This document shows positions 1,215 to 34,072 of a DNA stretch of 35,851 nt, piece after piece. Where the stretch lies: contig JAGGNB010000061.1 of NCBI GenBank assembly GCA_017886375.1, positions 1 to 35,851 on the forward strand, in the 5' to 3' direction. This DNA comes from Octadecabacter sp. (GTDB lineage Bacteria > Pseudomonadota > Alphaproteobacteria > Rhodobacterales > Rhodobacteraceae). The notes under the pieces were generated by a model that did not search any database, had not been told where the DNA came from, and saw nothing but the letters and a program-made list of their open reading frames with translations. Position 1 is the first letter of the stretch. The number at the start of each line of letters is the position of its first letter. Position numbers and translations under genes: made by a program.

Positions 1215-2138
1215 TTAGGTGTCTGATGGTCGTGCACTTCGCAGGCTTGCCGCAGTCTTATCTTTCTTCAGCGCTTCGAACCCGATGATCACGTCTAGAA
1301 GTTCCGTCGTGATTTCATCTTGCCGCACAGCGCGTGTTTCTGCTCCGAGGTCATCCAACCTTTCGTCCACCGATCTTTCAGCCTGCTGCATCAGTGCCAA
1401 CCGTGCGGAATTTTCGGTCATCAACGCCTCGGCAATCGCGCCGAACAGTGTGGCAAAGAGATAACTCCGCACCAATGCCGTAAAGAGATCGTTGGCGGGC
1501 ATCGAAAAGAACGGCCGACTGCGTGACACCCAGGGCTTTGCCGAAAGAGCGGCCAGCAACCCTTTGTCGAGCGGAAGCAGGGCAGCAACCACTGGCCCTT
1601 GTCCCGTCATGCCGTCCTGAGTGACATAAGCCAGCGATACTACTAAATCGTGTGGATGGACCGTCTTACGGATCGCTTCCAGGCGTTGCGTGAGCAGGTT
1701 TGCCAAACGCCCGATCCCGTCAACAGAAGCAGCCGGGAAAAACGTCTCGTCAACTGTGATGTGCTGATCCGCCAATGCGTCCGCCATTTGTGCCCCGACG
1801 CACAGAACTGTTGGCAGACCATCGGCGGATTCGGTCTGTAGACCTGCAACATGGTCCGCAAGCGACTCATTGTAGTTTCCGCACAGCCCGTGATCCGATC
1901 CGAACACGATCAAGACCTGCGCGCCATGGACGGTTGAGTTCGTCTCAAGCGGGCCAAATGCCGTCAGAAACGCATGCAACCCATCCAAAACGGTCTCGCG
2001 ATAGGTCTCGATCGCCTTGGCAGCCTGTTCATAGGGGGCAGAATTGATCACAGAGAGGGTTTTCATCGTATGAACAACGCTACGGATCCCCCGCATGCTG
2101 GTTGTTCGACGCCCAAGGGTTTCAAGAGTTTGCGGCAT
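1215..2138 (-). CDS. atpG: N-ATPase gamma subunit
   Basis: This 307-residue protein is the central stalk subunit of the rotary ATPase and couples the catalytic head to the c-ring. The N-terminus has the helix typical of gamma ([24 protein letters not shown]), and the C-terminus carries the matching helix rich in E, R and L, ending in [15 protein letters not shown]. The middle keeps a Rossmann-like segment with [12 protein letters not shown], equivalent to the SDRGLCGxxN motif of gamma subunits. It is the last gene of the operon; its ATG overlaps the end of atpA by 17 bases and is preceded by GGGAGGG inside atpA. The sequence is divergent from housekeeping gamma, as expected for N-type enzymes. 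Confidence 0.93.
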
Positions 2139-3660: not shown

Positions 3661-4421
3661 TTCGGAACCACCTTTAGGTCAACGCCAGCGGCCAATTGCT
3701 CGTCCATCAGATCGCCCAAGCTGTCGATATACCCATCGACCGTCCAATCCAGTTGTGCGCCCCCGATGCGCAGAACCAGGCCAGGAGGCTGATCAACATC
3801 GGTTTCAAACTGAACCGAGACGTCTGGGAATACAGTTTGAAGGCTGCTCATCAAATCGTCCTTTGCGGACGGTGGCAAGACATCCCTGCTAGTGATCACG
3901 GCCGAGTTGCTCTTGCCTGCAGCAATACGCAGGTCAGCCACCATCGGCGCGATCCCCTTGGCAAGATGTTGGGCAATCCGGCCCTCCAGCGTTTCGTCGG
4001 CAAGGTCAGTCAACGCCTTGCGGGTCAAGGACAGCAAGGCCCCGCCCCCCGCGCGTTGCAATTTTACAGCGTATTTGCGCGACTCTTCGTCTTGGTGGGC
4101 AACCCAAGCGGCCTGTTCTTGCTCCAGCCGGTTGCGAGCATCAGCCAAGAGAGCGTCGCGCTGTGTCTCAGCCTCCTGTTGCACTGCATCTGCCATATCT
4201 GCTTGTTTGGCATTCAGCGCCCTGACCTGATCCAAATGCAACTGTTCCGCTGCCTGTGCCTTTTCCTTTGCAAGCACAGCCTCTTGCATTCTGTTGGTGA
4301 TCTTGGCCTCGCGGGCGTCGATCCCATCCAGAATTGGGCGGTACAAAAACCGCTTCAAAAGCCAGACAAGAACCAGAAAGTTCGCGATCTGGGCGGCCAC
4401 AGTGATCCAGTCAATTGACAT
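3657..4421 (-). CDS. atpF: N-ATPase subunit b with fused delta-like C-terminus
   Basis: At 254 residues this is much longer than an ordinary b subunit (about 160). Residues 1-30 form one membrane span ([25 protein letters not shown]). A long charged coiled coil follows to about residue 120 ([32 protein letters not shown]). The last 120 residues, with [15 protein letters not shown] and [17 protein letters not shown], resemble the C-terminal part of delta/OSCP. No separate delta gene exists in the operon, so this extension probably replaces delta in tying the peripheral stalk to the head. That arrangement is known for N-ATPases. The start lies four bases after the atpE stop and the end overlaps atpA. 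Confidence 0.9.
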
Positions 4422-4424
4422 TCG

Positions 4425-4712
4425 TCAGCTTCCCGTCGCCTGAGAGGCTGCGAGAGCGGCAATCCAGAACGGGTTGGCGAAGATCAGGATCATCGCGACG
4501 ACGAAACAATAGATCGCAGTGGATTCGATCATCGCCAGGCTGACGAACAGCGTTCTGGAGATGGTCGATGCCGCGTCAGGTTGCTGTGCAATTGCGCTTA
4601 ACGCCGATGACGCGGTGCGTCCTTCACCGAGCGCGGGGCCGATTGCTCCGAAGGAGACGGTCAATCCTGCGGTAAAGATCGAAATGGCGGCGATGATGCC
4701 AAGGTCTGTCAT
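4425..4712 (-). CDS. atpE: N-ATPase c subunit (rotor ring)
   Basis: This 95-residue double-span hairpin is the proteolipid that forms the rotor ring. The first helix has GAIGPALGEG with glutamate E30 where Na+-type c subunits carry glutamine. The second helix has MIESTAIY, giving the ion-binding E63 with S64, T65 and Y68 as in Na+-binding c subunits. The pair E30/E63, 33 residues apart, is the two-carboxylate site described for N-ATPase rotors. The family was first proposed to carry Na+, but a Burkholderia rotor of this type was later reported as proton-binding, so the ion is undecided here. AAGGAAA four bases before the ATG is a strong ribosome site, which suits a subunit needed in many copies. 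Confidence 0.95.
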   Translation of the reverse strand: MTDLGIIAAISIFTAGLTVSFGAIGPALGEGRTASSALSAIAQQPDAASTISRTLFVSLAMIESTAIYCFVVAMILIFANPFWIAALAASQATGS

Positions 4713-5404
4713 GGGATTTCCTTTTCAGGCTGAGATGGTTTGGGAGGTGCTGTCGCGCTGGAAATGTAGACCGTGGCTAAAATTGCGAAGATATAGGCCT
4801 GGATCACGCCGGTCAGCAGACCAAGCACATCCATGACGACAGGAAAGAAGAACGGCGCGACGCTGAGCAGGATGGCCGCGATGACGGCCCCACTCATGAT
4901 GTTGCCGTAGAGCCGGATCGCCAGCGAAATGCCCCGAGAGAATTCCGAGATGATGTTGAAGGGAAGCATGATGAACGACGGCTGAAGGTAAGTCTTGAGG
5001 TATCCACCCAGCCCTTGGCTGGTAATACCGAATAATGGGACGGCAATTAGAACCGACAGCGCCAGAGCCGTGGTCGTGGAAAGCGATGCAGTAGGCGGCT
5101 CGAACCCCGGAACAACCAGCAAAAGGTTCGACATGGCGACAAACAAAAACAGCGTGCCCACGTAGTAGAGCAGGTGGCGCGATGGGCCAGGCGCGACTTC
5201 TTCGATCTGGCTTTGGATCCCTTGCACGATGACCTCTAGCATTGTCCGCCACCGGTTTGGCGGCACATCCGGACGCAGGTTGCGGGTAATCAGAAGCGAC
5301 GCCACAGTCAGCAGTGCCATGACGATCCATGTATAAAATATCGTGGCATTGATGGGGATATCCCATACCTCGAACATGATCGTTTGATCCGGTGAAAGAT
5401 TCAT
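4709..5404 (-). CDS. atpB: N-ATPase a subunit
   Basis: This 231-residue multi-span membrane protein forms the stator half-channels next to the c-ring. The conserved fourth-helix region reads ISEFSRGISLAIRLYGNIMSG, containing the essential arginine (SLAIRLYGN) that deprotonates the c-ring glutamate. The C-terminus has LGLLTGVIQAYIFAILATVYI, matching the last helix with its Q-A-Y-IF signature. The chosen ATG overlaps the atpR stop as ATGA. A longer reading frame runs upstream to 5761, but it would pass through atpR and reads as nonsense there. The stop overlaps the atpE start. Confidence 0.95.
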   Translation of the reverse strand: MNLSPDQTIMFEVWDIPINATIFYTWIVMALLTVASLLITRNLRPDVPPNRWRTMLEVIVQGIQSQIEEVAPGPSRHLLYYVGTLFLFVAMSNLLLVVPGFEPPTASLSTTTALALSVLIAVPLFGITSQGLGGYLKTYLQPSFIMLPFNIISEFSRGISLAIRLYGNIMSGAVIAAILLSVAPFFFPVVMDVLGLLTGVIQAYIFAILATVYISSATAPPKPSQPEKEIP

Positions 5405-5700
5405 GGCGCGCCCACGGCAGGCACACCCGCACGGGCGATTGCGGTCGCTATGGTGCGCGCGATGAAGAACGCTAAGGCAAATCCTGCCAAAGCGAAGGGG
5501 CCAAAAAAGATGACGACTGCCCAACCGATCCCTAGCAAAGCCGCGATACGTACAATGGCGCTCAACACCAATATGTTGACGGGTCGCTCTGTTCGAAGCG
5601 CAAGGCGCATCCCAAAGCTGAGGCCAGCAAAAAACACCGCCGATATGGCAGCACCAATCATCAGTCCAAACGCCACCGCGTTCCAATCCACAACTATCAT
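5401..5700 (-). CDS. atpR: N-ATPase-specific small membrane subunit AtpR
   Basis: This 99-residue hydrophobic protein has three predicted spans (about residues 6-30, 43-66 and 67-90). It is the AtpR type found only in N-ATPase operons. Arginines lie in or near the membrane segments (R32, R36, R39, R51). In the family, such conserved arginines have been proposed to meet the acidic residues of the c-ring and to help ring assembly. Both ends overlap neighbouring genes by four bases (ATGA), upstream with atpQ and downstream with atpB. Its presence distinguishes this operon from a housekeeping ATP synthase. Confidence 0.88.
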   Translation of the reverse strand: MIVVDWNAVAFGLMIGAAISAVFFAGLSFGMRLALRTERPVNILVLSAIVRIAALLGIGWAVVIFFGPFALAGFALAFFIARTIATAIARAGVPAVGAP

Positions 5701-5980
5701 TTGTTGCCTCCTTCCTTGTTAATCCATGACGCGGCAATAAAGGCCCCGAGCACGACCCCACCCAAGATTAGCGCGATAGTCCATGCGAAATTCTGAGGCG
5801 CGACCCGATCCAGCCAAAGCCCCAGAAACGCCCCGCCAACGGTCGGCACCGCAATTGACCAGCCTATCATCCCAAAGGTGCCGATACCGCGCAGTGGGCT
5901 TGGTCCCGGATTGTCGCGCGCGGATTTCAACCGCTTTGCGTGGCGGGCGATATCCTCGGCCGATTTGTCCGGCTTGGGCG

Positions 5981-5984
<4 letters not shown>
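5697..5984 (-). CDS. atpQ: AtpI/AtpZ-like membrane protein AtpQ
   Basis: This 95-residue protein has a charged N-terminus (about residues 1-30) and two membrane spans joined by a short loop: GMIGWSIAVPTVGGAFLGLWLDR, then WTIALILGGVVLGAFIAASWI. The G-x2-x3-G spacing and the WLDR loop fit the AtpI/AtpZ family, whose members assist assembly of the c-ring and may carry Mg2+ or Ca2+. In N-ATPase operons this position is called atpQ. The start overlaps the atpC stop and the end overlaps the atpR start, each as ATGA. Confidence 0.88.
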
Positions 5985-8035
<2,051 letters not shown>

Positions 8036-8185: not shown

Positions 8186-8199
8186 TTGACTTGCATCAA
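8186..8199. promoter_or_regulatory. FNR/FixK-type box upstream of the N-ATPase operon (proximal)
   Basis: TTGACTTGCATCAA fits TTGAY-N4-RTCAA at all ten defined bases. It lies about 150 bases before the ATG of the first operon gene. A clear -10 element at the spacing expected for activation from this box was not obvious. Confidence 0.75.
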
Positions 8200-8281: not shown

Positions 8282-8295
8282 TTGACCCACATCAA
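8282..8295. promoter_or_regulatory. FNR/FixK-type box upstream of the N-ATPase operon (distal)
   Basis: TTGACCCACATCAA is a second full match to TTGAY-N4-RTCAA, 96 bases from the first. Two boxes in front of one operon suggest strong control by oxygen, or activation from one box with modulation from the other. Confidence 0.75.
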
Positions 8296-10395: not shown

Positions 10396-11286
10396 CTAAG
10401 GCGTCGGTCTTTGTTCTATATCAATCGCTTTGCTGGAAATGATCCTTCTTAGGACGCTTGGGACTGCATGTGGAATGTCTTCGGCAATTAGGCCGGGGCC
10501 AATGGCGTCGGCGCATTGGACGTGAATATGTGCGCCAACCGCCGCCGCCTCGAACGCCTCAAAGCCACGTGCCATCAGTCCCGTTATGAGACCACTCAAA
10601 ACATCGCCAGACCCAGCCGTCGCAAGCCATGTCGCATATTTGAAAGTCCTTGAGTCTATCGCGACACAATAGCCATCCGGTTGCGCGACAATGGTCGTCT
10701 CTCCCTTGAAAAGAACGACACATCCGAACTCTTGCGCCGCGGTCTTCGCCAAAGTGATACGACACGTCGTTTGATCAAAGGCATGAGGTATCAAACGCCG
10801 CAACTCGCCCTCATGCGGCGTCATAACCACCTGTGACTGGGTTGAAGAACGGATCAGATCCGGCTCCCGTGCGAGCAAAGTAATTGCATCCGCATCAAGG
10901 CAAATCGGGATAGGGACCGGCAGAGTTTGGATTAGTTTGGATCGGCTGTCAGCGCCCAACCCGAAATTAGGGCCGACGCAAACAGCCGCAGGTTTCAACG
11001 CCAGCAATTGTTCCTCTAACCCGCTTTGGCCGTCAAAGGGCTTGACCATAACGGCATCTAAACGCGCGGCATGTTCGCTGACGCTTTGGTGTGAACAAAA
11101 GACACTGACAAGCCCCGCACCAATCCGCAGTGCCCCGTGGGCCGCCAACCTTGCAGCACCACCCTGCCCCGCTGGACCGGAGATGATGACGGCATGACCA
11201 TGATCATGTTTATGCTGATCCCCACGTTTGTTCAAACGTCGGGCCTGATCAGCCGTGATAGAAAAACCTGCGATGTCGGGGGTCAC
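10396..11286 (-). CDS. nnrD: ADP/ATP-dependent NAD(P)H-hydrate dehydratase
   Basis: This 296-residue protein is the stand-alone C-terminal (carbohydrate-kinase-like) half of YjeF/Nnr. It repairs hydrated NADH and NADPH by dehydration, using ADP or ATP. Visible motifs are the N-terminal HGHAVIISGPAGQGGAARLAA, VMTPHEGELRRL (residues 154-165), and LATAGSGDVLSGLITGL (221-237), which contains the catalytic aspartate D228. The epimerase half present in fused Nnr proteins is missing. Translation starts at GTG 11286 with AAAGG upstream. A perfect FNR-type box lies 65 bases before the start, with TAAACA at the expected -10 distance. The presence of this repair enzyme among stress genes suggests a role in keeping cofactors usable during stasis. 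Confidence 0.88.
   Translation of the reverse strand: MTPDIAGFSITADQARRLNKRGDQHKHDHGHAVIISGPAGQGGAARLAAHGALRIGAGLVSVFCSHQSVSEHAARLDAVMVKPFDGQSGLEEQLLALKPAAVCVGPNFGLGADSRSKLIQTLPVPIPICLDADAITLLAREPDLIRSSTQSQVVMTPHEGELRRLIPHAFDQTTCRITLAKTAAQEFGCVVLFKGETTIVAQPDGYCVAIDSRTFKYATWLATAGSGDVLSGLITGLMARGFEAFEAAAVGAHIHVQCADAIGPGLIAEDIPHAVPSVLRRIISSKAIDIEQRPTP
10411..10424. promoter_or_regulatory. FNR-like box inside nnrD, upstream of the HemG-like gene
   Basis: On the minus strand the site reads TTGATATAGAACAA, one mismatch from TTGAY-N4-RTCAA. It overlaps the last codons of nnrD. A TAGGCT sequence lies at about the -10 distance for the HemG-like gene. Confidence 0.5.
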
Positions 11287-11350: not shown

Positions 11351-11364
11351 TTGATCGGCATCAA
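11351..11364. promoter_or_regulatory. FNR/FixK-type box upstream of nnrD
   Basis: TTGATCGGCATCAA is a perfect palindromic match. On the minus strand it lies 65 bases before the nnrD GTG, with TAAACA about 22 bases further on. On the plus strand TTACAT lies at the equivalent distance, so the site may once also have served the antiporter gene now reduced to a remnant. Confidence 0.8.
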
Positions 11365-11447: not shown

Positions 11448-11816
11448 GTGTCAGGTGCCTTAATCGTCAATCCTGCACGCTGCCATAAACAGGCGTTTCA
11501 TGAAATTGAAGACATCAAGCTGCCCTTCATGATCTTGTTTTTCATCTTGGCTGGTGTGTCGTTTGATCTGGCCGCGCTCGTTTGTTTGGGTTTGATTGGC
11601 TTGGCTTTGGTGGTGTTGCGCCTGATCGCGCGCCTGATTGGCGGATGGATCGGCGCGGTCTTGGCGGGTGCGCAGGCATCCCAAGTCATCTCTATGGCCC
11701 TGATTGTCGGCTCGACGGTTGTGTTAGGGAATATAGGACCGATCTCCACATTGTGGGCCCTTGAAAAAAGCGAAGTCAGACCGCTGACGGTTTCACACAA
11801 GTCTTGCACAACATAG
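11448..11816 (+). pseudogene. CPA2-type cation:proton antiporter C-terminal remnant, internally deleted
   Basis: The frame opens without a proper start. It reads GALIVNPARCHKQAFHEIEDIKLPFMILFFILAGVSFDL, typical of the middle of Kef/NhaA-like CPA2 sodium or potassium:proton antiporters. Two membrane-like stretches follow (LVCLGLIGLALVVLRLI, GGWIGAVLAGA). The text then jumps to ISMALIVGSTVVLGNIGPISTLWAL, equivalent to the final span of the family. The N-terminal 250 or so residues and about 30-40 residues between the last spans are missing, so this is a relic. Its end overlaps the convergent dksA-like gene. No upstream part of the antiporter is left in the adjacent sequence. Confidence 0.7.
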
Positions 11817-12105
11817 CATAAGGAACCGCGTTCAGGCGGTCTTGCGAAATGGGATCGCCGCATTTCAAGCAGGTTCCGTAGGTCTTGTTTTTGATCCGCG
11901 CCAACGCTTGCTGAAGAAGGGCAATTTCCTTTTGCACGGCCAGACCCAGCCCCTCCAGTACTTCGTCGTCCTCGATGTCGACGGCTTGTTCTTCCCAATC
12001 GGCGGGCTTTGGAACACTCAATTCTGTATCGATTTCGTGCAACCTGACGCCTAACTCCTGAAGGCGGTCGGACATTAGGGTTTTGTAGTGCTGAAAGTCT
12101 ATCAT
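11776..12105 (-). CDS. DksA/TraR-family zinc-finger protein
   Basis: This 109-residue protein belongs to the DksA/TraR family, which binds in the secondary channel of RNA polymerase and alters promoter response, often with ppGpp. The N-terminal half forms a likely coiled coil (residues 5-30). An acidic linker follows (EEQAVDIEDDEVLEGLG), then the helix AVQKEIALLQQALARIKNKTYGTC. The zinc site is C79, C82, C100 and C103. It is shorter than housekeeping DksA (about 150 residues) and resembles the short family members. GAGG precedes the ATG at 12105. A perfect FNR-type box lies 56 bases upstream with TAAACT at the -10 distance, predicting induction without oxygen. Confidence 0.85.
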   Translation of the reverse strand: MIDFQHYKTLMSDRLQELGVRLHEIDTELSVPKPADWEEQAVDIEDDEVLEGLGLAVQKEIALLQQALARIKNKTYGTCLKCGDPISQDRLNAVPYAMLCKTCVKPSAV

Positions 12106-12160
12106 GGGTGTGCCTCATCTTTTGCTATCGCTAGTTTAGCTCCCGCGTTGGCCCTTGCAC

Positions 12161-12174
12161 TTGATGAAAATCAA
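12161..12174. promoter_or_regulatory. FNR/FixK-type box upstream of the dksA-like gene
   Basis: TTGATGAAAATCAA is a perfect match and overlaps the stop codon of the upstream channel gene. The box centre is about 41 bases before a predicted start site near 12126, and TAAACT lies at the -10 position. This is typical class II geometry. Confidence 0.8.
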
Positions 12175-13279: not shown

Positions 13280-13293
13280 TTGACCTGCATCAA
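13280..13293. promoter_or_regulatory. FNR/FixK-type box upstream of the VIT1-like gene
   Basis: TTGACCTGCATCAA is a full match. Its centre lies 41.5 bases before the A of the start codon at 13328, and GCATAA at 13315-13320 fits a -10 element. Class II activation would therefore start transcription at or next to the ATG. Confidence 0.78.
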
Positions 13294-14116: not shown

Positions 14117-15247
14117 ATGTTTGCAAACGCAACAAAGCTATGCACGATCAACGGCTTCACCATCAGGGTCGATCCAAGCTGGTTGGTGATTGCTGCCCTC
14201 GTCACCTGGAGCCTGTCACAACAGTATTTCCCGAATGTATTGCCCGATGCCCACCCGAACACCCACATGACAATGGCCTTGGCGGCTATGGTGTGTTTTT
14301 TCACATCCTTGCTGGCCCATGAATTGGCGCATTGCGTTGTCGCGCGCCGCTTGGGCGTTCCCGTCAAAAACATCACGTTGTTTTTATTCGGTGGCGTCGC
14401 CGAGCTTGAGACCGAACCACAATCCGCCGTCGTTGAATTCTGGGTGGCCTTGGCCGGACCCGCCATGTCATTCACTCTTGCCTTCGGCTTTTGGGGTCTA
14501 ACCATCGTCGCAGGGGCCGCGCCCGGGGCTGATCCCGTGGTTTTGGTTCTATCCTATCTCGCGTTGATGAATCTGATCCTTGCACTGTTCAATCTGATCC
14601 CTGCCTTTCCACTGGATGGCGGGCGCGTGCTGCGGGCCTACCTTTGGCACCGCAGTGGCAATAGTCTGAGTGCGACCAGAACAGCCGCAAAATCCGGTGG
14701 CATCTTGGGGTACGTGTTGATCGGTCTGGGGGTTTTGGCCCTGTTTCGTGGCGCGTTGGTAGCCGGCCTTTGGCAGATGATGATTGGCGGGTTCATCCTT
14801 ATGGCTGCCCGATCAAGTTATCAATCGCACTTGGCGCGGGCCGCGTTTGATCACAAGGCCGTCCGTGACCTGATGGAACGCGACCCCATCACCATTGGCC
14901 CCGAAATCACACTGGCGGACTACGTCAATAGAACCGTTTTGGCACAAGGGGTCACCTTTGTTCCCGTCGTCGAGGACGGTGTGCTGCTTGGCCATATGGA
15001 CCGCAACGTCCTGTCGGGCATTGACCGTGAACATTGGGGCAGCACGCAGGTTGGCGACGTCTTTGTCGGCCTTAATGGCGAGAATTCGACAGGTCCCAAT
15101 GTGCCCATTCAGGATCTGATGGCGCGCATAAGTAAAACAAATCGACGCAAATTCATGGTGGTCCAGAACCACAATCTGATCGGCGTCATAACACTCACTG
15201 ATCTGATCCAGTATTTGCAAGCGTCCGAACGGGCGATGGACCTTTAA
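14117..15247 (+). CDS. Site-2 protease-like membrane metalloprotease (M50) with CBS-like C-terminus
   Basis: This 376-residue protein has the intramembrane zinc site HELAH at residues 68-72 and the third ligand in NLIPAFPLDGGRV (D167). About six membrane spans occupy residues 20-270. The C-terminal third (DLMERDPITIGPEITLADYVNRTVL, and KFMVVQNHNLIGVITLTDLIQYL) has the pattern of a pair of CBS domains. This layout is the M50B group of bacterial site-2 proteases, which cut membrane-bound regulators such as anti-sigma factors; CBS domains often sense adenosine nucleotides. No partner anti-sigma factor is visible nearby. It is followed after 16 bases by the oxidoreductase gene and probably shares its transcript. 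Confidence 0.9.
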   Translation: MFANATKLCTINGFTIRVDPSWLVIAALVTWSLSQQYFPNVLPDAHPNTHMTMALAAMVCFFTSLLAHELAHCVVARRLGVPVKNITLFLFGGVAELETEPQSAVVEFWVALAGPAMSFTLAFGFWGLTIVAGAAPGADPVVLVLSYLALMNLILALFNLIPAFPLDGGRVLRAYLWHRSGNSLSATRTAAKSGGILGYVLIGLGVLALFRGALVAGLWQMMIGGFILMAARSSYQSHLARAAFDHKAVRDLMERDPITIGPEITLADYVNRTVLAQGVTFVPVVEDGVLLGHMDRNVLSGIDREHWGSTQVGDVFVGLNGENSTGPNVPIQDLMARISKTNRRKFMVVQNHNLIGVITLTDLIQYLQASERAMDL

Positions 15248-16452: not shown

Positions 16453-16466
16453 TTGATCCATATCAA
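16453..16466. promoter_or_regulatory. FNR/FixK-type box between the USP and FixL-like genes
   Basis: TTGATCCATATCAA is a perfect match in the divergent region. For the USP gene, CAGAAT lies at the -10 distance; for the kinase gene, CATTAG lies near it. The site could therefore let the Fnr/FixK-type protein act on its own upstream sensor, a feedback loop. Confidence 0.78.
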
Positions 16467-16521: not shown

Positions 16522-18066
16522 ATGACCGACCCCGTGAAAGACAGCGCGATACTTGACACGATCCTTGCCGCAGCGGTCGACGGTATGGTTGTGACGGATC
16601 AAAACGGAACGATCCTGCAGTCAAACGCTGCCACCACAAAGCTGTTCCAGCGCGGTCCGGAAGAATTGGTCGGACAGAACGCAAGGATCTTGATGCCGAC
16701 TGACGTGGCAAGTCATCACGACGGTTACATGGCCCAGTATATGAAAACAGGACAACGCCGCATTATCGGCATCGGGCGCGATGTCGAGGGGCTGCGCAAA
16801 GATGGAACCGTCTTTCCACTGCACGTGTCAGTGGGCAATGCTGAAGTCGATGGCCAGAAATTGTTCGTAGCGATCATGCACGATCTGACCAACCGCAAGG
16901 CCACGGAGGACGCACTGGCACGGTCTCAGCGGCTGGATGCCATTGGCCAGATGACGGGCGGGATCGCCCATGATTTCAACAACCTACTAACCGTCATCAT
17001 CGGCAATCTTGAATTGCTGGAAATGCGCGGCGCGGATGACCGCCAGCTTGCACTGATCAAAGACGCGCTGGAGTCCGCGGAACTGGGTGCTGATTTGACG
17101 TCACGATTGCTGATTTTTGCACGAAAGGGGAACCTCAAGCCCGTGAAATCCGACCTGCGCGAGGTTTGTTCACAAACGTTAAAGATGCTCAACCGCACCC
17201 TCGGCGCGAGCTATCACATCAAGACCGATTTTGCGCCCTACGTAAGCCCCGTCATGATTGACCCTGTTCAACTTCAATCGGCTTTGATGAACTTGGCCCT
17301 AAACGCACGGGACGCCATGGGTGCCGGTGGCGAGCTGTTAGTGTCCATAGCGAACGTGACCATTGACGACACATACATGGCGCAAGAAATCGACATGGAG
17401 CGCGGCAGTTATGTTCGCCTGTCCGTCAGCGACAACGGTGAAGGAATGACCCCAGAGGCACAAAAACGCGCGTTCGAACCGTTCTTTACCACCAAGCTCA
17501 ACACTGGCGGTACCGGCCTTGGGCTGGCAATGGTGTACGGCTTTGTCAAACAATCCGGCGGCCACATCACGCTGTATAGCGAATTGGGTTTGGGCACGAG
17601 TTTTGGGCTTTATTTTCCTGCCTTGTCAAATGAGCAAAGTGAACGCATCCCGCAATCCGGCGGGGCCAATATAGCCTATATCGGCAAGGGTGAAACGGTG
17701 CTGGTGGTCGAAGACAATTCAAAAGTGCGCAAACTGTCCATCGAACGCATCCGTGACCTAGGGTACAAAACGCTTGAAGCTGGGACCGGCGATACCGCCT
17801 ATCAAATGCTGAAAGACGGCGCACAGGCGGACATCGTGTTTTCGGATCTGGTTATGCCGGGTGTCTTGAACGGCTATGACCTTGCAGCGAAAATCGCCAA
17901 AGAATTCCCGCAGCTCAAGGTGCTTATTACGTCCGGTTACGCCAGTGACGTTGTTACCGATACCTTCGCCCATGAAACGTCTTTTGACATTTTACACAAA
18001 CCTTATCGCCAGTCCGATCTGGCCGAACGGCTCTACGCACTTTTGGCAGGGTCGACTGCTGTTTGA
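16522..18066 (+). CDS. FixL-like hybrid histidine kinase with haem-type PAS domain
   Basis: This 514-residue protein starts at ATG 16522 (AAAGGAA seven bases upstream). A PAS domain covers residues 8-125. Compared with FixL, H66 in SHHDGY matches the haem-ligating histidine, and R86 in IIGIGR matches the oxygen-contacting arginine. They are 20 residues apart, as H200 and R220 are in Bradyrhizobium FixL. The kinase part has phospho-accepting H150 in GGIAHDFNNLL, an N-box around N257-N261, DNGEGM (304-309) and TGLGLAMV. A receiver domain follows (about 392-510) with phospho-accepting D442. No membrane span is seen, so it should be cytosolic. It is likely an oxygen sensor whose kinase is active when oxygen is absent; haem binding itself is inference from residues. 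Confidence 0.88.
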   Translation: MTDPVKDSAILDTILAAAVDGMVVTDQNGTILQSNAATTKLFQRGPEELVGQNARILMPTDVASHHDGYMAQYMKTGQRRIIGIGRDVEGLRKDGTVFPLHVSVGNAEVDGQKLFVAIMHDLTNRKATEDALARSQRLDAIGQMTGGIAHDFNNLLTVIIGNLELLEMRGADDRQLALIKDALESAELGADLTSRLLIFARKGNLKPVKSDLREVCSQTLKMLNRTLGASYHIKTDFAPYVSPVMIDPVQLQSALMNLALNARDAMGAGGELLVSIANVTIDDTYMAQEIDMERGSYVRLSVSDNGEGMTPEAQKRAFEPFFTTKLNTGGTGLGLAMVYGFVKQSGGHITLYSELGLGTSFGLYFPALSNEQSERIPQSGGANIAYIGKGETVLVVEDNSKVRKLSIERIRDLGYKTLEAGTGDTAYQMLKDGAQADIVFSDLVMPGVLNGYDLAAKIAKEFPQLKVLITSGYASDVVTDTFAHETSFDILHKPYRQSDLAERLYALLAGSTAV

Positions 18067-18785
18067 GCGATCTGAACAGGGCTTGCGAATGTATACCCGA
18101 TTCCGCGTACGGTCTTGATCAGTTTTGGGCTGGATGGGTCGCGTTCGATCTTTTTGCGCAAACGTGCGACCTGATTGTCAATCGTGCGATCCAGCGGGGA
18201 CCAATCCACCCCTCCGATCAGGTCCATCAACTGATCGCGCGACAATACCCGTTCAGGACGATTCAAAAATACAGTCAACAATTTGAAATCGCCGCTGGTC
18301 AATTCACAATGCGCACCGTCACGATCTAGCAGTTCCAACCGGACGGGGATCGCAGTCATGCCATCAAATCTGAATTGCTGAATGTCTTGTACAACACCGG
18401 CACCGGTGACGCCCCCGTCGCCCTTGCGGCGCAAAACGCTTCTGGTCCGCGCAATGACTTCGCGCACATGAAAAGGTTTGGTAATGTAGTCATCCGCCCC
18501 CACCTCAAGCCCGACAACGCGGTCAATCACATCATCTTTGCCAGTGACCATAATAATCGCAACGTCTGATATGCGGCGGATTTCACGCGCAAGGTCCACA
18601 CCGTTGTCAGCCCCCAAATGAATGTCCAACGTGATCAATTCAACTGTCGACGTTTGCAACGCGGCCAACGCTTCTGCCGCCGTCCCCGCCTCCAGCGTGG
18701 TGAACCCTTCGTCTTGCAATACATTGCGCAACACGGCTCGGATCTTAGGATCGTCATCAACTATTAATACGGTCTGAGGTGTCAT
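18033..18785 (-). CDS. OmpR/PhoB-family response regulator (FxkR-like)
   Basis: This 250-residue protein has a receiver domain with the acidic pocket D10-D12, phospho-accepting D54 (LITLDIHLG), the switch threonine in IIMVTGKDD and lysine in YITKPF. A winged-helix DNA-binding domain follows (DQLMDLIGG, DRTIDNQVARLRKKIE, IKTVRGIGYTF). It converges on the kinase gene with a 34-base overlap of coding ends. AAGGGG precedes its ATG. Its type and its place between a hybrid FixL and a FixK match the FxkR regulator of Rhizobium etli, which links hFixL to fixK. The pairing with this kinase is inferred from context. Confidence 0.9.
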   Translation of the reverse strand: MTPQTVLIVDDDPKIRAVLRNVLQDEGFTTLEAGTAAEALAALQTSTVELITLDIHLGADNGVDLAREIRRISDVAIIMVTGKDDVIDRVVGLEVGADDYITKPFHVREVIARTRSVLRRKGDGGVTGAGVVQDIQQFRFDGMTAIPVRLELLDRDGAHCELTSGDFKLLTVFLNRPERVLSRDQLMDLIGGVDWSPLDRTIDNQVARLRKKIERDPSSPKLIKTVRGIGYTFASPVQIAQTAVDPAKSA

Positions 18786-18860
18786 TTGAGCCCCTTCGGG
18801 CGAAATGGAGGTGTGCTGTGTTAGCCAAGGTCGTTAACGTTATGGACAACAATACTCTGC

Positions 18861-18876
18861 GTTACAAAACGATACA
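18861..18876 (+). promoter_or_regulatory. K-box-like direct repeat upstream of the Crp/Fnr gene
   Basis: GTTACA-AAAC-GATACA is a direct repeat of a hexamer with a four-base spacer. As I recall it, the FxkR binding site (K-box) upstream of fixK in Rhizobium etli is GTTACA-N4-GTTACA, so this copy differs at one base. It lies 79 bases before the ATG of the Crp/Fnr gene and 76 bases before the response-regulator gene, in their shared divergent region. Confidence 0.6.
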
Positions 18877-18954
18877 ATTCTCTCAATCACAACAGTAACG
18901 TAGAATACCTTTGCTGTTCAAGGTGGCCTCCTTACACATAGGAGGATTACGCCG

Positions 18955-19632
18955 ATGTACGTCACGCTGCCAACAGAACACACAGCGGCCGTCACAGCGA
19001 CGGCGCCTTTATCCAAAACCTGCCTGTCATTTCCGGAAACGCGCCTAAAGACAGGGTCTTATCTGTATTACGAAGGCGATAACGTTGATTGGCTTTATCA
19101 GGTCACATCAGGCGTTGTTCGCCTCACACGGCTTTTGTCTAATGGGAGGCGTCAGGTCATCTCCTTTGGCTTTCCCGGTGATATCGTCGGCTTTCCGTCA
19201 GCCGGTGATCATCATACAGATTGCGATGCTTTGGTTGATACCCGCTTGCGGCCATACCGACGCAAATGCCTCGAAAGCAGTACCTGCGACGCGCCGTTGC
19301 ATCGCGCTTTGCTTCAGGCCGCCCTGCGCGAAATTAGCGCAATGCAGGACCATTTCATGATGCTTGGACGTAAATCAGCCGCCGAAAAGGTCGCATCGTT
19401 TCTGAATGTCATGTCTGAACGGGTCGGCGATGATATGGGCGTCCATACACGTTTCGCCCTTCCCATGAGCCGTTCGGACATTGCCGATTTCCTTGGTCTT
19501 ACGACAGAAACGGTCAGCCGTACCTTGACACAATTGCGCAAAAGCAAAATCATCGAAATCGAGAACATTCATACGATTGTGGTGTTGCGCCCGACGGCGT
19601 TGCTCGGGTTGTGTTTGGGCGAAGGTGACTGA
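18955..19632 (+). CDS. Crp/Fnr-family regulator, FixK-like
   Basis: This 225-residue protein has an N-terminal cyclic-nucleotide-type beta-roll (about 25-110), a dimer helix (about 118-155) and a C-terminal helix-turn-helix. The recognition helix contains E185-T-V-S188-R189 (LGLTTETVSRTLTQL), the combination that reads TTGA half-sites in FNR and FixK. The cysteines (C23, C90, C105, C111) do not form the N-terminal cluster that binds an oxygen-sensing [4Fe-4S] centre in FNR or FnrL. This suggests a FixK-like protein controlled by its expression. AGGAGG nine bases before the ATG supports the start. It is the likely reader of the twelve boxes in this window, although a chromosomal FnrL could share them. 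Confidence 0.9.
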   Translation: MYVTLPTEHTAAVTATAPLSKTCLSFPETRLKTGSYLYYEGDNVDWLYQVTSGVVRLTRLLSNGRRQVISFGFPGDIVGFPSAGDHHTDCDALVDTRLRPYRRKCLESSTCDAPLHRALLQAALREISAMQDHFMMLGRKSAAEKVASFLNVMSERVGDDMGVHTRFALPMSRSDIADFLGLTTETVSRTLTQLRKSKIIEIENIHTIVVLRPTALLGLCLGEGD

Positions 19633-21437: not shown

Positions 21438-21451
21438 TTGACTGAAATCAA
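21438..21451. promoter_or_regulatory. FNR/FixK-type box between the bactofilin-like and USP genes
   Basis: TTGACTGAAATCAA is a full match in a divergent region. For the plus-strand USP gene, TTACAT at 21472-21477 lies near the -10 distance, giving a start near 21486. The site is 61 bases from the start codon of the bactofilin-like gene on the other strand. Confidence 0.8.
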
Positions 21452-23817: not shown

Positions 23818-23880
23818 TTGCCTGCTTGAATGCCACGTCATCGTCTCCTTGGGGAAACCAATCCTCAGGAGGACGATCGT

Positions 23881-25317
23881 ATGACACCGCCAACCTCACC
23901 ACCAGACCCTGCTTCGACCAGCAGATTTCCCACCGCCTATACCATTCTGTTTGCCCTCGTGGTGGTGATGGCCGCCCTGACATGGATTATTCCGGCAGGC
24001 GAATATCAACGCGCGCCCAATGCCGCATTGGGCCAAGACGTTCCAGTGCCCGACACTTACAGTCAGGTCGACGCGGCACCCCAAGGACTTCTCGACGTAT
24101 TAATGGCACCCATCGCGGGCTTTTACGATCCGACATCCTACACCGCGAATGCTATTGATGTGTCGTTGTTTGTGCTGATCGTCGGCGGTTTTCTGGGCGT
24201 CGTAACAGCTACGGGGGCGATCAATACTGGCGTGGCGCAGGCGATGCGCAAACTGGAAGGGCGCGAAAAGTGGATGATCCCGATTATGATGGCACTGTTC
24301 GCCGCCGGTGGCACAACCTACGGCATGGCCGAAGAAACGCTGGCGTTTTACGTGTTGTTGATCCCGATTATGATCGCAGCCGGCTATGACGCTCTAACAG
24401 GTGTCGCTATTATCATGCTCGGCGCTGGCGTTGGCGTTATCGGGTCAACGATTAATCCGTTTTCTACGGCGATCGCGTCAGATGCCGCTGGAATCCCGTT
24501 CACCCAAGGCATGACATTGCGTTTTGTGATCCTCGGCCTCTCTTGGATTGCAGCTGTCACCTTCGTCATGCGCTACGCCGAACGGGTCCGAAAAGATCCG
24601 TCGCTGTCGTTGGTCGCAAACATGAAGGACGCGAACGAGGCACATTTTCTGCAAAAACACGCCCCCGCTGAAAACCCGCACTTAACGGGCATGCAGATCA
24701 TCATTCTGATCCTGTTTGCAGCCACTTTCGTGGTCATGGTCTGGGGCGTTGCGTCACAGGGATGGTGGATGGCCGAAATGTCGGCACTGTTTCTCGGGGC
24801 GTCTATCGTCATCGGCACCCTTGGCTGGCTTGGTGAAAAGGTGTTCACAAACGCATTTGTCGAAGGTGCGCGCGATCTACTGGGGGTCGCCCTTGTGATC
24901 GGGCTGGCGCGCGGGATCGTCATCATCATGGATCAGGGGCGCATCACCGATACGTTCCTGCATACCTTCGAGGGCTGGATCACGGGCATGTCGCAAGTGG
25001 CCTTCATCAACGCGCTGTTCGGGATTGAGGCATTGATGAGCTTTCTGGTCCCATCGACCTCCGGCCTTGCCGTGCTGTCCATGCCGATCATGGCGCCGCT
25101 GTCGGATTTTGCGGGCGTTAGCCGTGACCTTGCCGTCACTGCGTTTCAGACCGCGATCGGCATCACAAACCTTGTCGCCCCTACCTACGCCGTGGTCGTC
25201 GGTGGTCTGGCCATCGGGCGCGTACCTTACAACACATGGCTGCGGTTCGTCTGGCCGCTGTTGTTGATCCTGTCGTTGATGTCCATGGCCCTTCTTAGTG
25301 CCGCGGTGATGTTATGA
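23881..25317 (+). CDS. YfcC/DcuC-type transporter, probable arginine/ornithine antiporter
   Basis: This 478-residue membrane protein has about 11-12 spans and belongs to the YfcC family (DcuC superfamily). Recognisable segments are [44 protein letters not shown] and [21 protein letters not shown]. The start is ATG 23881 with AGGAGG eight bases upstream. It leads an operon with arcA, whose ATG overlaps its stop (ATGA), so exchange of extracellular arginine for ornithine is the likely task. It is not related to the classic APC-type ArcD. Exchange of this kind costs no energy, fitting growth on arginine fermentation. Confidence 0.82.
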
Positions 25318-26537
25318 GTGCCCCTCTCGGCGTGTACTCGGAAGTCGGAAGACTGCGCACCGTCATGGTATCGCGGCCCGGTCTTGCGCACGAACGACTG
25401 ACGCCGTCCAACTGTGACGCGCTGCTGTTTGACGATGTTTTCTGGGTCGATGAAGCCCGTAAAGATCACTTCGCTTTCTGCGACAAAATGCGGGATCGTG
25501 GGGTCGAGGTGTTGGAACAGCATGACCTTCTGACCGACATCCTCGATCTGCCAGACGCGCGCAAATGGCTACTGGATCGCAAGATCACCGAAGACCACAT
25601 CGGTGTCGGCATGATGGATGAATTGCGCGGCTGGCTGAACGAAATGCCGTCGCCCGCGCTCACTCGATTTCTAACAGGCGGCATTACAGTGCACGACCTG
25701 CCTTTCAAACCGCATAGTATGTTCGGCCGGTTCCTTGGGCCGAACGGGTTTGTCTTACCACCCCTGCCAAACCTGATCTTCACCCGCGACACCAGTTGTT
25801 GGATCTACGGTGGTGTAACGCTCAACCCGATGCATTGGCCCGCACGCCAACAAGAAACACTGATCGCCGCTGCCATCTACAAATTCCATACCCGATTTGA
25901 CGGCAAGGCCGATGTTCTTTGGGGCAATCCCGATCAGGACTTTGGCCCCGCAACCCTTGAGGGCGGCGATGTCATGCCAATCGGACAAGGCTGCGTTCTG
26001 GTCGGCATGGGCGAACGCACAACACCGCAAGCCGTCGGCCAACTGGCGGTTGCGCTATTTGATCAAGGCGTCGCTGAGCGGGTCATCGCCTGCCAGATGC
26101 CGCCGTCGCGCGCCGCGATGCACCTCGATACGGTTTTTTCGTTTTGCGACCGTGATCTTGTCACCAGCTTCACGCAGGTGGCCGACGCGATTAAATGCTA
26201 TTCGCTCTATCCCGATGAAAAACACGCACTATCCGTCGTCGAAGAAGACAACACAATCTTCGAAGTCGTCCAAGAGGCTCTGAACATCCCGAAGCTCCGC
26301 ATCATCGGCACAGGCGGCGACAGTTTCGAGCAAGAGCGCGAACAGTGGGACGATGGCAACAACGTGGTCGCGCTCGAACCCGGTGTCGTGCTGGCCTACG
26401 ACCGCAACGTCCAAACCAACACACGTCTGCGCAAAGCCGGCGTCGAAGTCATCACCATCCGCGGAGCCGAACTTGGCCGTGGGCGCGGTGGTGGCCACTG
26501 CATGACCTGCCCCATTTCACGCGACGCATCGGAGTAA
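25314..26537 (+). CDS. arcA: Arginine deiminase
   Basis: This 407-residue enzyme converts arginine to citrulline and ammonia, the first step of the arginine deiminase pathway. It has the N-terminal [18 protein letters not shown], the substrate motif [31 protein letters not shown] with the catalytic histidine, and the nucleophile C396 in [10 protein letters not shown]. Length is typical. The ATG overlaps the transporter stop and is translationally coupled to it; arcB follows after four bases. Confidence 0.97.
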
Positions 26538-26541
26538 TCAC

Positions 26542-27543
26542 ATGGCTTACAATCTCAAAAACCGGTCCTTCCTCTCCTTGCGCGATTTTACCCCGCAAGA
26601 AATCAAGTACCTGCTAAAACTGTCCACCGATCTAAAGGCCGCCAAATACACCGGAACCGAACAACAGACCCTGAGGGGCCGTGAAATAGCGTTGATCTTC
26701 GAGAAAAACTCAACCCGCACACGCGTCGGATTCGAGGTCGCGGCGTCCGATCAGGGCGCGAATGTCACCTATCTGGGACCTTCAGGCAGTCATATCGGCA
26801 AGAAAGAAAGCATCAAAGATACTGCCCGGGTTTTGGGCCGCGTTTACGATGCAATCGAGTATCGCGGCTTTGGCCAAGGCATCGTTGAAACACTGGCGCA
26901 GTGGTCCGGTGTGCCCGTCTACAACGGGCTGACGGATGAGTTTCATCCGACACAAATTCTCGCTGATGTGCTGACCATGACCGAACATTGCGACAAGCCC
27001 CTTGGCCAGATCGCGTTCTGCTTTTTGGGGGACGTTGGCAACAACATGGGTGACAGCCTGCTCATCGGGGCTGCAAAACTGGGCATGGACGTGCGTCTGT
27101 GTGGGCCAAAATCCCTGTGGCCAGACAAGAAGATCGTCAACGCGGCACTGGCCGAAGCCAAAGCAACCGGCGCGCGTATTCTGTTGACAGAAGACGTGCA
27201 GCAAGGCGTCTCCGAATGCGATTTCGTTTACACCGACGTCTGGGTGTCCATGGGCGAACCCGAAGATGTCTGGGCCGAACGGATCAAGCTGTTGATGCCC
27301 TATCAGGTCAACACAGAGACGATGGCGATGACCGGCAATCCACACGTCAAATTCATGCACTGCCTGCCTGCGTTTCATAATACGGAAACCGAAATCGGCC
27401 AGCATATCCGCGAAACCTTCGGCCTTGACGCAATGGAGGTGACCGACGACGTGTTCGAGTCCCCTGCGTCAATCGTCTTTGATCAGGCCGAAAACCGAAT
27501 GCACACCATCAAGGCCGTTCTCGTTGCAACGTTGGGGTCCTAG
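26542..27543 (+). CDS. arcB: Ornithine carbamoyltransferase, catabolic
   Basis: This 333-residue enzyme splits citrulline with phosphate into ornithine and carbamoyl phosphate. The carbamoyl-phosphate site STRTR is at residues 57-61, HPTQ at 135-138, DVWVSMGEP at 232-240 and HCLPAF at 273-278. Its place between arcA and arcC argues for the catabolic role rather than biosynthesis. GGAG lies before the ATG at 26542. Confidence 0.96.
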
Positions 27544-28440
27544 GTGCGGATCGTTGTCGCCTTGGGAGGAAACGCCCTGTCCGAACGGGGTGAGGCGCTG
27601 AGCGGTGAAGCGCAACGCGCAACGATCCGAAAGGCCGCAAAATCGCTCGTCATGTTGCTTGAGGCTGACCATGAGGTTGTGATCACCCACGGCAATGGAC
27701 CGCAGGTCGGATATCTGGCCATGCAAGGGGGCGCATTTCCACTTGATGTGTTAGGCGCCGAAACCGAAGGGATGATCGGTTATGTCCTACAGCAGGAACT
27801 GGATAACGCCTACACGCCCGACGCCAAATTCGCGACACTTTTGACCCAGATCGAAGTGGACCCCGATGATCCTGCATTTCAGTCCCCCACGAAATTTGTT
27901 GGCCCCGTCTATAGCGAGAAAGATGCAGCCCGCCTAAGTGCGGATCGCGGCTGGAGCATCGGCAAAGACGGTGAATATTTTCGCCGCACTGTCCCGTCAC
28001 CGCGTCCCAAGCGCATTCTGGAAATCGACGTGATACGATTACTGGTGGGCCAAGGCGTGGTCGTAATCTGCGCTGGCGGTGGTGGCATTCCTGTTGTTCA
28101 CCGCGCTGACGGTACAATGATCGGCATCGAAGCGGTCATCGACAAAGACCACGCCAGCGGCCTGCTGGCCCGCGATCTGGGTGCAGATGCCTATCTGATG
28201 CTGACAGATGTGGAAGGGGTCTTTGAAAACTGGGGCACGCCCAATCAATCCCTGGTTACTAAGACAACCCCGCAGGATTTGCAGCGCATGTCGTTTCCAG
28301 CGGGATCAATGGGCCCTAAAGTGCAGGCAGCCTGTGAATTTGTCACAGCAACGGGCGGTTTTGCGGCCATCGGCGCGTTAGGCGATGCGGCGGACTTAAT
28401 CGCCGGAACCGCAGGCACCCGAATAAATGCTGACTGGTGA
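27544..28440 (+). CDS. arcC: Carbamate kinase
   Basis: This 298-residue enzyme transfers phosphate from carbamoyl phosphate to ADP, the ATP-yielding step of the pathway. The N-terminus MRIVVALGGNALSERGE, THGNGPQVG, and CAGGGGIPVV are family motifs; DKDHASGLLARDLGADAYLMLTDVEGVF forms the nucleotide region. Translation starts at GTG 27544, the codon immediately after the arcB TAG, with only a weak G-rich ribosome site inside arcB. It converges on the cbpM gene with a gap of ten bases and no visible terminator. Confidence 0.95.
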   Translation: MRIVVALGGNALSERGEALSGEAQRATIRKAAKSLVMLLEADHEVVITHGNGPQVGYLAMQGGAFPLDVLGAETEGMIGYVLQQELDNAYTPDAKFATLLTQIEVDPDDPAFQSPTKFVGPVYSEKDAARLSADRGWSIGKDGEYFRRTVPSPRPKRILEIDVIRLLVGQGVVVICAGGGGIPVVHRADGTMIGIEAVIDKDHASGLLARDLGADAYLMLTDVEGVFENWGTPNQSLVTKTTPQDLQRMSFPAGSMGPKVQAACEFVTATGGFAAIGALGDAADLIAGTAGTRINADW

Positions 28441-32407: not shown

Positions 32408-34072
32408 CTAAAGTTTTTCAGGCTTGGCAAGCCATTCGCGCCCTTTAAGCATGGCTTGCCAATAGATCGGCGGCAGGATTTTTTCCTTGAGGAGCCACGC
32501 AAGACGGCTGGGTTGCGTACCGTCAATCAGCCAGCTGGGAAAACTGGGTTGCAACGCCCCGCCATATCCAAATTCAGCGAGTACGATTTTGCCACGTTCA
32601 ACCGTCAACGGACACGACCCGTAGCCGTCATATTGCGATACAGCCGGTCTACCCCGGATGTCGGCGATGATATTGTCCGCCACAACCGGTGCCTGTTTGC
32701 GCGCCGCAGCGGCAGTTTTCGCGTTCGGGGCGTTCATCACATCCCCCAACGACCAGATGTTGTCATAAGTCTTATGGCGCAGGTTTGCCTGATCCACATC
32801 GACCCAACCGGCGCGGTCCGCCAATGGCGACGCGGCAATGAAATCCGGCGCACACTGGGGCGGGGTGACATGCATCATGTCGAAATCAACCTCGACGCGT
32901 TCGACGGGTAAGTCCGGTTTCGAGACCTCAAACCACGCTTTGCGGGCAGGCCCATCCACCGCGACCAAATTATGGTGAAAGTTCAAACCAATGCTGTATT
33001 TCTCGATGTATTTTTCCAATGCGGGCACGTAATCCTTGATCCCGAACAACACGCCGCCCGCGTTATGAAACTCGATGTCGATGTTCTTGATCACGTTTGT
33101 CCGCGTCCAGTGATCTGCGGACAGATACATGGATTTTTGCGGCGCACCGGCGCATTTGATCGGCATAGGCGGCTGGGTAAAAAGCGCTTTACCTTCCTTA
33201 AGGCCTGACACCAATTCCTATGTGTAAGGTGCCAGATCATAGCGGTAGTTCGATGTCACCCCGTTACGGCCTAGTGTGTCCACAAGCCCTGCGACACCCG
33301 CCCAGTTCAGTTTCAATCCGGGACACACCACAAGGCGTTTGTATTTCACCACCCGGCATCCATCCAAAAAAGACCGCATCTTTTTCGGGTTCGAATGCGG
33401 CCACAGCAGCCTTGACCCAATGAACGCCTTTCGGGATCAACGACCCCATCGTGCGAACGGTGTCTTCGGCGTCAAAAATGCCGCCGCCCACCATCGTCCA
33501 TCCGGGTTGATAATAATGCGCGTCAGCCGGATCGATAATCGCGACCTCAAGTCCGGGCTTGCGGGCTTTCAGGCTGGCAGCCATCGCGATGCCTGAGGTC
33601 CCTGCCCCAACAATAACCACATCATAGGACACATCCGCCTGATCAACAGGGGTCTTACCGCCATTTGCGATCCGGCGGACAACACCGGACATGTCGTAGC
33701 CTGCCTGTTTTGTCGCGCTCAGAATGTCTGCCACGGGCAGGTCGTTTGCGCGCGCCAGCGACCATAACGTGGCCGATCGTGTTTCGGTGCGACAATACGC
33801 AAGAACCGGCTTGGGCAATGCGGCCATCGTTTCACCGAAATTTACTGCATTTTGATCGCTGCCAATCCCCCTTCAATCGGGATATACCGCATGATCAGGT
33901 CCAGTTTTTGCGCGGTTCGTGAAAGCACTTTGAAAGTGGGCTGATCGGCACCTTCCCCGTCGGGTCGATTGCAGATGATCGACTTGATACCTTTGTCGGA
34001 TAGTGCTGCCAGATCGATCTCGCTGATCTGGGGCGCAACAAAGAACTGGTCCGTTATTTTGCGGATATCCAT
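32408..34072 (-). pseudogene. Blh (DUF442)-sulfide:quinone reductase fusion, broken
   Basis: Assembled over its frames, this would be a protein of about 555 residues: an N-terminal DUF442 phosphatase/sulfurtransferase-like domain, then an FAD-dependent sulfide:quinone reductase (VVIVGAGTSGIAMAASL; PPMPIKCAGAPQK; SLGDVMNAPNAKTAA). Three lesions interrupt it. An extra base in the G5 run (plus strand C5 33867-33871) ends the first frame after about 76 residues. An extra base in the T6 run (plus strand A6 33366-33371) shifts the frame after about 150 residues of the second part. A TAG at 33218-33220 replaces a likely TGG. Correcting all three restores convincing text (e.g. KYKRLVVCPGLKLNWAGVAG). 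The DUF442 loop reads CRTETRS where I expect glycine in place of E. Either the gene is dying or the two homopolymer changes are sequencing errors; the TAG is harder to explain so. Confidence 0.85.

Follow-up and report, generated by a model that had tools for sequence, protein, structure and literature searches.

A probable hFixL-FxkR-FixK-type low-oxygen cascade with a conserved K-box-like operator in Rhodobacteraceae

Introduction

In rhizobia, a hybrid histidine kinase (hFixL), an OmpR-type response regulator (FxkR) and a Crp/Fnr-type activator (FixK) form a cascade for which oxygen control and binding of FxkR to a DNA element, the K-box (GTTACA-N4-GTTACA), have been reported (PMC4999443, PMC7888657). 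Among the genomes compared in one of these reports FxkR was found only in Rhizobiaceae, where the origin of the cascade was placed (PMC4999443). Here we analyse a stretch of 35,851 nucleotides from Octadecabacter sp. (Rhodobacteraceae; assembly GCA_017886375.1, contig JAGGNB010000061.1), hereafter the window, in which genes for the same three protein types lie together. The window is the whole of one contig (C19) of a 3.26-Mb genome that is 90% complete in 225 contigs, and represents 1.1% of that genome. A preliminary description of its sequence had read the three genes as an exported, self-contained oxygen-response module of marine bacteria. Literature listings and the beginnings of abstracts, which covered few subscription papers, yielded no description of a hFixL-FxkR-FixK cascade in Rhodobacteraceae. 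The sequence strongly indicates that the window holds a known kind of cascade in a family for which no description was found, with its wiring recognizable as far as the operator.

The loci on Rhizobium etli plasmid p42f and Rhizobium leguminosarum plasmid pRL9 encode the same three protein types as the window, with regulators in one clade with its own. An exact K-box at R. etli fixKf points at the gene in the same orientation as the window repeat, and on pRL9 the K-box lies between divergent fixK9b and fxkR9, like the repeat in the window. In both rhizobial loci fixK and hfixL are same-strand neighbours beside cbb3 oxidase genes, whereas in the window the kinase gene is separate and convergent, the neighbours are stress and energy genes, and the operator has the Rhodobacteraceae form GWTACA-N4-GWTACA. 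The trio of Sinorhizobium meliloti (plasmids pSmeSM11a and pSymA) lies, like that of the window, in an island with genes for universal stress proteins, a site-2 protease, a metallo-beta-lactamase (MBL) protein and a trypsin-like protease, and pSymA has an exact GTTACACTCTGTTACA box; its Crp and kinase genes, unlike those of the window, are adjacent on one strand. Because the S. meliloti trio sits among similar genes, the stress-island setting is not special to Rhodobacteraceae.

The FixLJ-FixK systems of S. meliloti, Bradyrhizobium and Caulobacter share with the window a FixL-type heme PAS domain and a FixK-type output. FixJ is a LuxR/NarL-type regulator. The sequence of S. meliloti FixL has no C-terminal receiver, unlike the window kinase, and the protein is described as membrane-bound (PMC7888657); the window kinase is probably soluble, since there is no room for an N-terminal membrane part. 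Low-oxygen blocks rich in universal stress proteins, as the window appears to be, also exist under different regulators in Burkholderia (the lxa locus) and in mycobacteria (the DosR regulon). Parallels with DosR extend to a site-2 protease with CBS domains, Hsp20, a P-type ATPase and heme sensor kinases. For the lxa locus, FixLJ-FixK control has been suggested (PMC6127331).

The three genes and the operator between them

16522-18066, + strand: hybrid histidine kinase of hFixL type (Pfam: PAS near the N-terminus, HisKA, HATPase_c and a C-terminal receiver)
18033-18785, - strand: OmpR-type response regulator of the FxkR clade (Pfam: Response_reg and Trans_reg_C)
18851-18856: weaker half-site AATACT, beside the K-box-like repeat
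18861-18876, + strand: K-box-like direct repeat GTTACA-AAAC-GATACA, oriented to the Crp/Fnr gene
18955-19632, + strand: FixK-like Crp/Fnr activator that lacks the cysteine cluster of FNR (Pfam: cNMP_binding and HTH_Crp_2)

The adjacency of the three genes and the direct repeat between the regulator and Crp/Fnr genes were both correctly recognized in the preliminary description, with coordinates that agree and domains that Pfam assigns. The kinase gene and the regulator gene face each other and share 34 bp, and 169 bp containing the repeat GTTACAAAACGATACA separate the divergent regulator and Crp genes. The repeat has 11 of the 12 specified bases of the K-box and so is K-box-like, one base short of the exact consensus. 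A search of the window alone at up to 2 mismatches gave 2 matches against 2.0 expected. This chance-level figure would suit an assembly of unrelated parts, in which an OmpR regulator of no special kind and a repeat arisen by chance happen to adjoin a Crp gene. We consider that alternative highly improbable in view of the conserved three-gene linkage, the membership of the regulator in the FxkR clade (below) and a footprint shared by 30 of 33 distinct Rhodobacteraceae intergenic regions.

This footprint, TACA-N6-TACA directed toward the Crp gene, does not occur in the opposite direction in any of the 33 regions. Other spacings of the TACA repeat, from 0 to 20, are found in at most 6 regions (at spacing 16, which is the next half-site), and shuffled regions gave a mean of 0.18 and a maximum of 2. 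The three regions that lack an exact TACA-N6-TACA are each at most one mismatch away. It is this spacing- and direction-specific conservation across the family regions, and not the window match alone, that puts the repeat above chance, and the spacing, direction and shuffle controls rule out a chance repeat. Measured from the modelled start of the Crp gene, the operator begins 72-98 bp upstream in 29 of the 30 regions and 126 bp upstream in one; the 30 sites give the consensus GWTACA-AWWY-GWTACA, and 13 of them are followed downstream by a third half-site, TAC. At 0 mismatches the window site is the only GWTACA-N4-GWTACA in the genome. The K-box reading is upheld by conservation across the family and by a place and orientation that match those in R. 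etli and S. meliloti. Genome-wide, 14 more K-box matches at 1 mismatch compare with 26 for a reversed control, and therefore no further FxkR targets are claimed.

Eight more loci with a divergent Crp gene were considered beyond the family set. The exact TACA-N6-TACA is present in three (Tropicibacter, Sulfitobacter and S. meliloti), the Tropicibacter locus being on the same plasmid as one family locus, and is missing in five (Terrarubrum L030, a Sulfitobacter contig L040, Devosia L041, and Rhizobiaceae L044 and L045), where a repeat lies 1-2 mismatches from GTTACA-N4-GTTACA. Three loci from other alphaproteobacterial families (L190, L193 and L194) have no exact TACA-N6-TACA and carry GTCACA-N4-GTCACA at the same place, toward the Crp gene, a pattern noticed post hoc and without a chance control. 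The identical change in both half-sites suggests that operator and regulator changed together. On a Tropicibacter oceani plasmid (L028, 3067-4635) a regulator gene, a Crp gene and a K-box occur with no adjoining kinase gene, and the neighbours encode a CBS protein and phosphoenolpyruvate synthase.

Phylogeny and distribution of the regulator

The window regulator is 47% identical to that of R. etli and 46% to that of S. meliloti. In a tree of 87 rows, 33 of which represent other regulators of OmpR type (the window genome itself supplied six), it falls with rhizobial FxkR in a clade of 52 rows with support 99/88. The outgroup rows came from the best 80 loci of one scan together with the paralogues of the same genome, and several are on long branches. 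The clade comprises four references, three more Rhizobiaceae, 42 Rhodobacteraceae, Terrarubrum, Devosia and one unplaced alphaproteobacterial row. As references we used R. etli p42f, R. leguminosarum fxkR9 (pRL9) and two S. meliloti plasmids, whose rows are nearly identical. The R. etli row is the best regulator match on p42f, beyond fixKf and hfixL, and was taken to be FxkR; fxkR has been located on that plasmid (PMC4125696). The R. leguminosarum row was identified as fxkR9 from its position, which agrees with Table 1 of PMC7888657.

A phylogeny against FxkR had been proposed as a check in the preliminary description, with a place among unrelated OmpR proteins as the refuting outcome; this outcome did not occur, and the grouping obtained rules out an unrelated OmpR regulator. 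Within the clade the Rhizobiaceae (7 rows including all four references, support 100/99) are sister to all remaining rows (99/94). The description of the module as exported is without support because the regulators of the two families form sister branches; the S. meliloti trio, moreover, occupies a similar stress island. For the same reason a recent transfer from rhizobia is not supported.

The regulator was found in 38 of 394 sampled Rhodobacteraceae genomes, that of the window included, at 40 places, with two of the 38 genomes carrying it twice. These counts, obtained at an expectation value (E) of at most 1e-60 with the best six candidates per genome scored, are to be read as at least. At the same threshold it was absent from the one other sampled genome of the same genus. 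Flanking sequence was taken for 38 places besides the window and its own paralogue. A divergent Crp gene is present at 34 of the 40 loci, a kinase gene at 36 and both at 31. The six loci for which the filter returned no Crp gene include one at a contig end (L162), two where long overlapping open reading frames (ORFs) were dropped by the distance filter (L168, L175), one with a Crp gene at another place (L166) and two with none (L160, L174). In 34 of the 36 cases the kinase gene lies behind the regulator gene and converges on it. At two Rhodobacteraceae loci (L149, L152) it lies past the Crp gene on the Crp strand, which is the rhizobial gene order.

A sample of 385 genomes from the class includes 96 with a match to the regulator at E ≤ 1e-50, many of the matched proteins being other OmpR-type regulators; regulator, kinase and Crp genes were found together at 3 of the 27 class-level loci examined with short flanks (L190, L193 and L194). 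Judged by its regulator, the module occurs in 38 of 394 sampled Rhodobacteraceae genomes, and a few further families of the Alphaproteobacteria have it too, so it serves purposes beyond nitrogen fixation and may have arisen earlier.

A second complete trio (Crp, regulator and kinase genes) is present in the same genome on contig C208 (4369-7684, locus L036), with 63% identity to the window trio in the regulator, 53% in the Crp protein and 47% in the kinase. A diverged K-box, ACTACA-AAAC-TTTACA, stands between its divergent genes and is oriented to the Crp gene. The regulators of the window and C208 are on separate branches within the Rhodobacteraceae clade.

Sensor and output proteins

The PAS domain of the window kinase matches the S. 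meliloti FixL PAS structures with a best E of 1.3e-26, and the kinase aligns with 41% identity to R. etli hFixL and 44% to S. meliloti hFixL. It keeps the motif His-x14-Ile-Ile-Gly-Ile-Gly-Arg, the first His of which we take to be the FixL heme ligand and the last Arg the distal Arg of FixL. The FixL-type heme PAS attributed to this hybrid kinase is supported by structure match, alignment and kept residues, and together with the C-terminal receiver these features fit the hFixL type. With the pattern slightly relaxed around II-G-x-G-R, 29 of the 36 family kinases have the motif. The remaining seven comprise four long ORFs (L154, L161, L164 and L185) and three short ones (L162, L166 and L168), and the four long ones suggest that the sensor input has been exchanged or lost with the relay retained. 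These four, and the fact that ligand specificity is not fixed by sequence, are what speaks for a different signal (nitric oxide, carbon monoxide or the redox state, such as that of the quinones) acting on the same cascade. A different signal seems unlikely for the window kinase, in which the heme His is kept along with the distal Arg and whose PAS domain is closest to the FixL PAS structures.

The closest solved structure to the window Crp protein is FixK2 (E 2.7e-35). The protein has no N-terminal cysteine cluster and has the recognition helix ETVSR, both traits of the FixK type. An FNR-like N-terminal cysteine cluster is found in none of 40 trio Crp proteins (33 from Rhodobacteraceae and 7 from elsewhere), whereas it is present in the FnrL protein of the same genome; 36 of the 40 have an ETxSR helix. 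Iron-sulfur sensing by the trio Crp protein is ruled out by the missing cluster.

FixK/FNR boxes and the weighing of the cascade

Genome-wide, 34 distinct places match TTGAY-N4-ATCAA, against 0 for a reversed control. Seven of the 34 are inside the window, where 0.37 would be expected (19-fold enrichment, binomial p 8e-8). At up to 2 mismatches, the anaerobox TTGAT-N4-ATCAA gives 40 matches in the window against 16.7 expected, with 27 the largest number in a shuffle. Around the 40 family loci, 639 kb of sequence contain 64 TTGAY-N4-RTCAA boxes, and two scrambled controls gave 0 and 0; seven loci have no such box. The boxes of the window and their candidate targets are as follows.

8186-8199: FixK/FNR box TTGACTTGCATCAA, preceding the N-type ATP synthase operon
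8282-8295: FixK/FNR box TTGACCCACATCAA, upstream of the same operon
11351-11364: FixK/FNR box TTGATCGGCATCAA, upstream of the gene 10396-11286, which encodes a NAD(P)H-hydrate dehydratase-like protein
12161-12174: FixK/FNR box TTGATGAAAATCAA, upstream of an ORF of no Pfam family (11498-12118), touching the end of the preceding ORF
13280-13293: FixK/FNR box TTGACCTGCATCAA, at the TTG mechanically assigned as start of a VIT-family ORF
16453-16466: FixK/FNR box TTGATCCATATCAA, in the gap that separates the kinase gene from a universal stress gene
21438-21451: FixK/FNR box TTGACTGAAATCAA, between a bactofilin-like gene (below the Pfam cut-off) and a universal stress gene
1215-7776, - strand: N-type F1Fo ATP synthase operon, candidate target (Pfam families include ATPase_gene1)
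23830-28440, + strand: arginine deiminase pathway, candidate target (DcuC-type carrier, arcA, ornithine carbamoyltransferase and amino acid kinase)

The true start of the VIT-family ORF is probably further in than the TTG.

A hFixL-FxkR-FixK-type low-oxygen cascade is very likely (probability about 0.82) because of the conserved repeat, the FxkR clade, the kept FixL heme residues, the second trio and the enriched boxes. In such a cascade the kinase, judging from its kept residues, would bind oxygen through the PAS heme, and a fall in oxygen would lead it to phosphorylate the OmpR-type regulator. The phosphorylated regulator would then bind the tandem GWTACA-N4-GWTACA, the conservation of which is observed, and activate the FixK-like gene. 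The FixK-like protein, having no iron-sulfur motif, would in turn activate genes with TTGAY-N4-RTCAA boxes. Predicted targets are the N-type ATP synthase operon and the universal stress and VIT-family genes and, in the window copy, the kinase gene itself, which would amount to positive feedback. In its output the cascade seems directed at supplying energy and surviving stress, not at fixing nitrogen, and the earlier placing of the module far from nitrogen fixation agrees with the absence of a nifH above the cut-off in the genome, at its 90% completeness.

Several observations weigh against this reading, in addition to the seven kinases without the heme motif. The deep branches of the Crp tree are without resolution, and the family trio Crp proteins are not grouped specifically with rhizobial FixKf. 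In a quick kinase tree with long branches the family kinases do not form one group (2 changes), and L149 stands weakly beside the rhizobial kinases. The window proteins miss the NCBIfam cut-offs for FixK (155 of 300 bits) and FixL (174 of 850 bits). R. etli FixKf (128 of 300) and R. etli hFixL (253 of 850) miss them as well; the FixL cut-off thus does not discriminate hybrid forms, and the NCBIfam cut-offs were dropped as a decisive test. A box upstream of the kinase gene is present at only 9 of 36 loci and is missing at the C208 copy, so it was rejected as a general feature. Upstream of the arginine deiminase genes no exact box was found, with matches at 1-2 mismatches only. Finally, the genome encodes FnrL (contig C153, four N-terminal cysteines and an ETVSR helix) on the contig that carries ccoN with two boxes upstream, and for this reason FnrL may share or dominate the boxes.

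The last point leads to an alternative in which the trio is real but the boxes of the island are worked mainly by FnrL, an iron-sulfur oxygen sensor, the regulon of the trio Crp protein being narrow or different. Such a division is compatible with the first steps of the cascade, and FnrL has been reported to activate universal stress genes directly in Dinoroseobacter shibae (PMC5398030). The clustering of 7 of the 34 genome boxes on one contig around the trio argues against it, as does the report that in R. leguminosarum at 1% oxygen the hFixL route, and not FnrN, drives box-controlled genes (PMC7888657). We regard this alternative as a substantial possibility that falls short of even odds. 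The cascade had been described as lying among the genes that it seems to control: the concentration of boxes around the module supports this, with FixK or FnrL as their possible user. 'Self-contained' was an overstatement, since FnrL could use the same boxes, and 'marine' is an inference.

If the cascade operates as proposed, it would provide Rhodobacteraceae, next to FnrL, with a route to life at low oxygen that starts from a heme sensor; its operator is clear enough for direct testing. A broader and more doubtful extension, which we offer tentatively, is that a Rhodobacteraceae-specific branch of the cascade might govern, as master switch, a portable island for survival at low oxygen, a DosR-like counterpart in which the N-type ATP synthase, perhaps with arginine fermentation, would energise cells without respiration, and whose operator would have drifted by lineage (GTTACA, GWTACA, GTCACA) with spacing and direction constant.

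Neighbouring genes and other features of the window

14117-15247, + strand: site-2 protease with CBS domains, the commonest neighbour of the trio

Neighbours were counted over 42 loci (the 40 places minus one near-duplicate plus L029, L030 and L031). The site-2 protease with CBS domains is found at 20 of these, DUF2267 at 12, two universal stress families at 11 each, a bactofilin-like protein at 10, a P-type ATPase at 9 and Hsp20 at 6.

The N-type ATP synthase and arginine deiminase genes flank the oxygen module on either side. ATP derived from arginine, together with an ion-driven ATPase, could supply energy without respiration; no literature linking arginine deiminase with N-ATPase was found.

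As for a mobile island, the window contains no tRNA gene, and of the 24 kb that were queried one plasmid record matched 1%, at 74%. Near the contig edge (616-1098) there is a weak match to DUF6538, below the Pfam cut-off, a domain which we take to occur in phage-type integrases and which would fit such an island. At 32408-33827 a sulfide:quinone reductase-like gene is possibly split over two ORFs by a frameshift, as a pseudogene or through an assembly error: the ORF at 32408-33214 matches the type III model in its later part, and that at 33264-33827 has an FAD-binding start. The MBL gene near these ORFs (34111-34995) aligns with the Blh model over positions 138-423 only.

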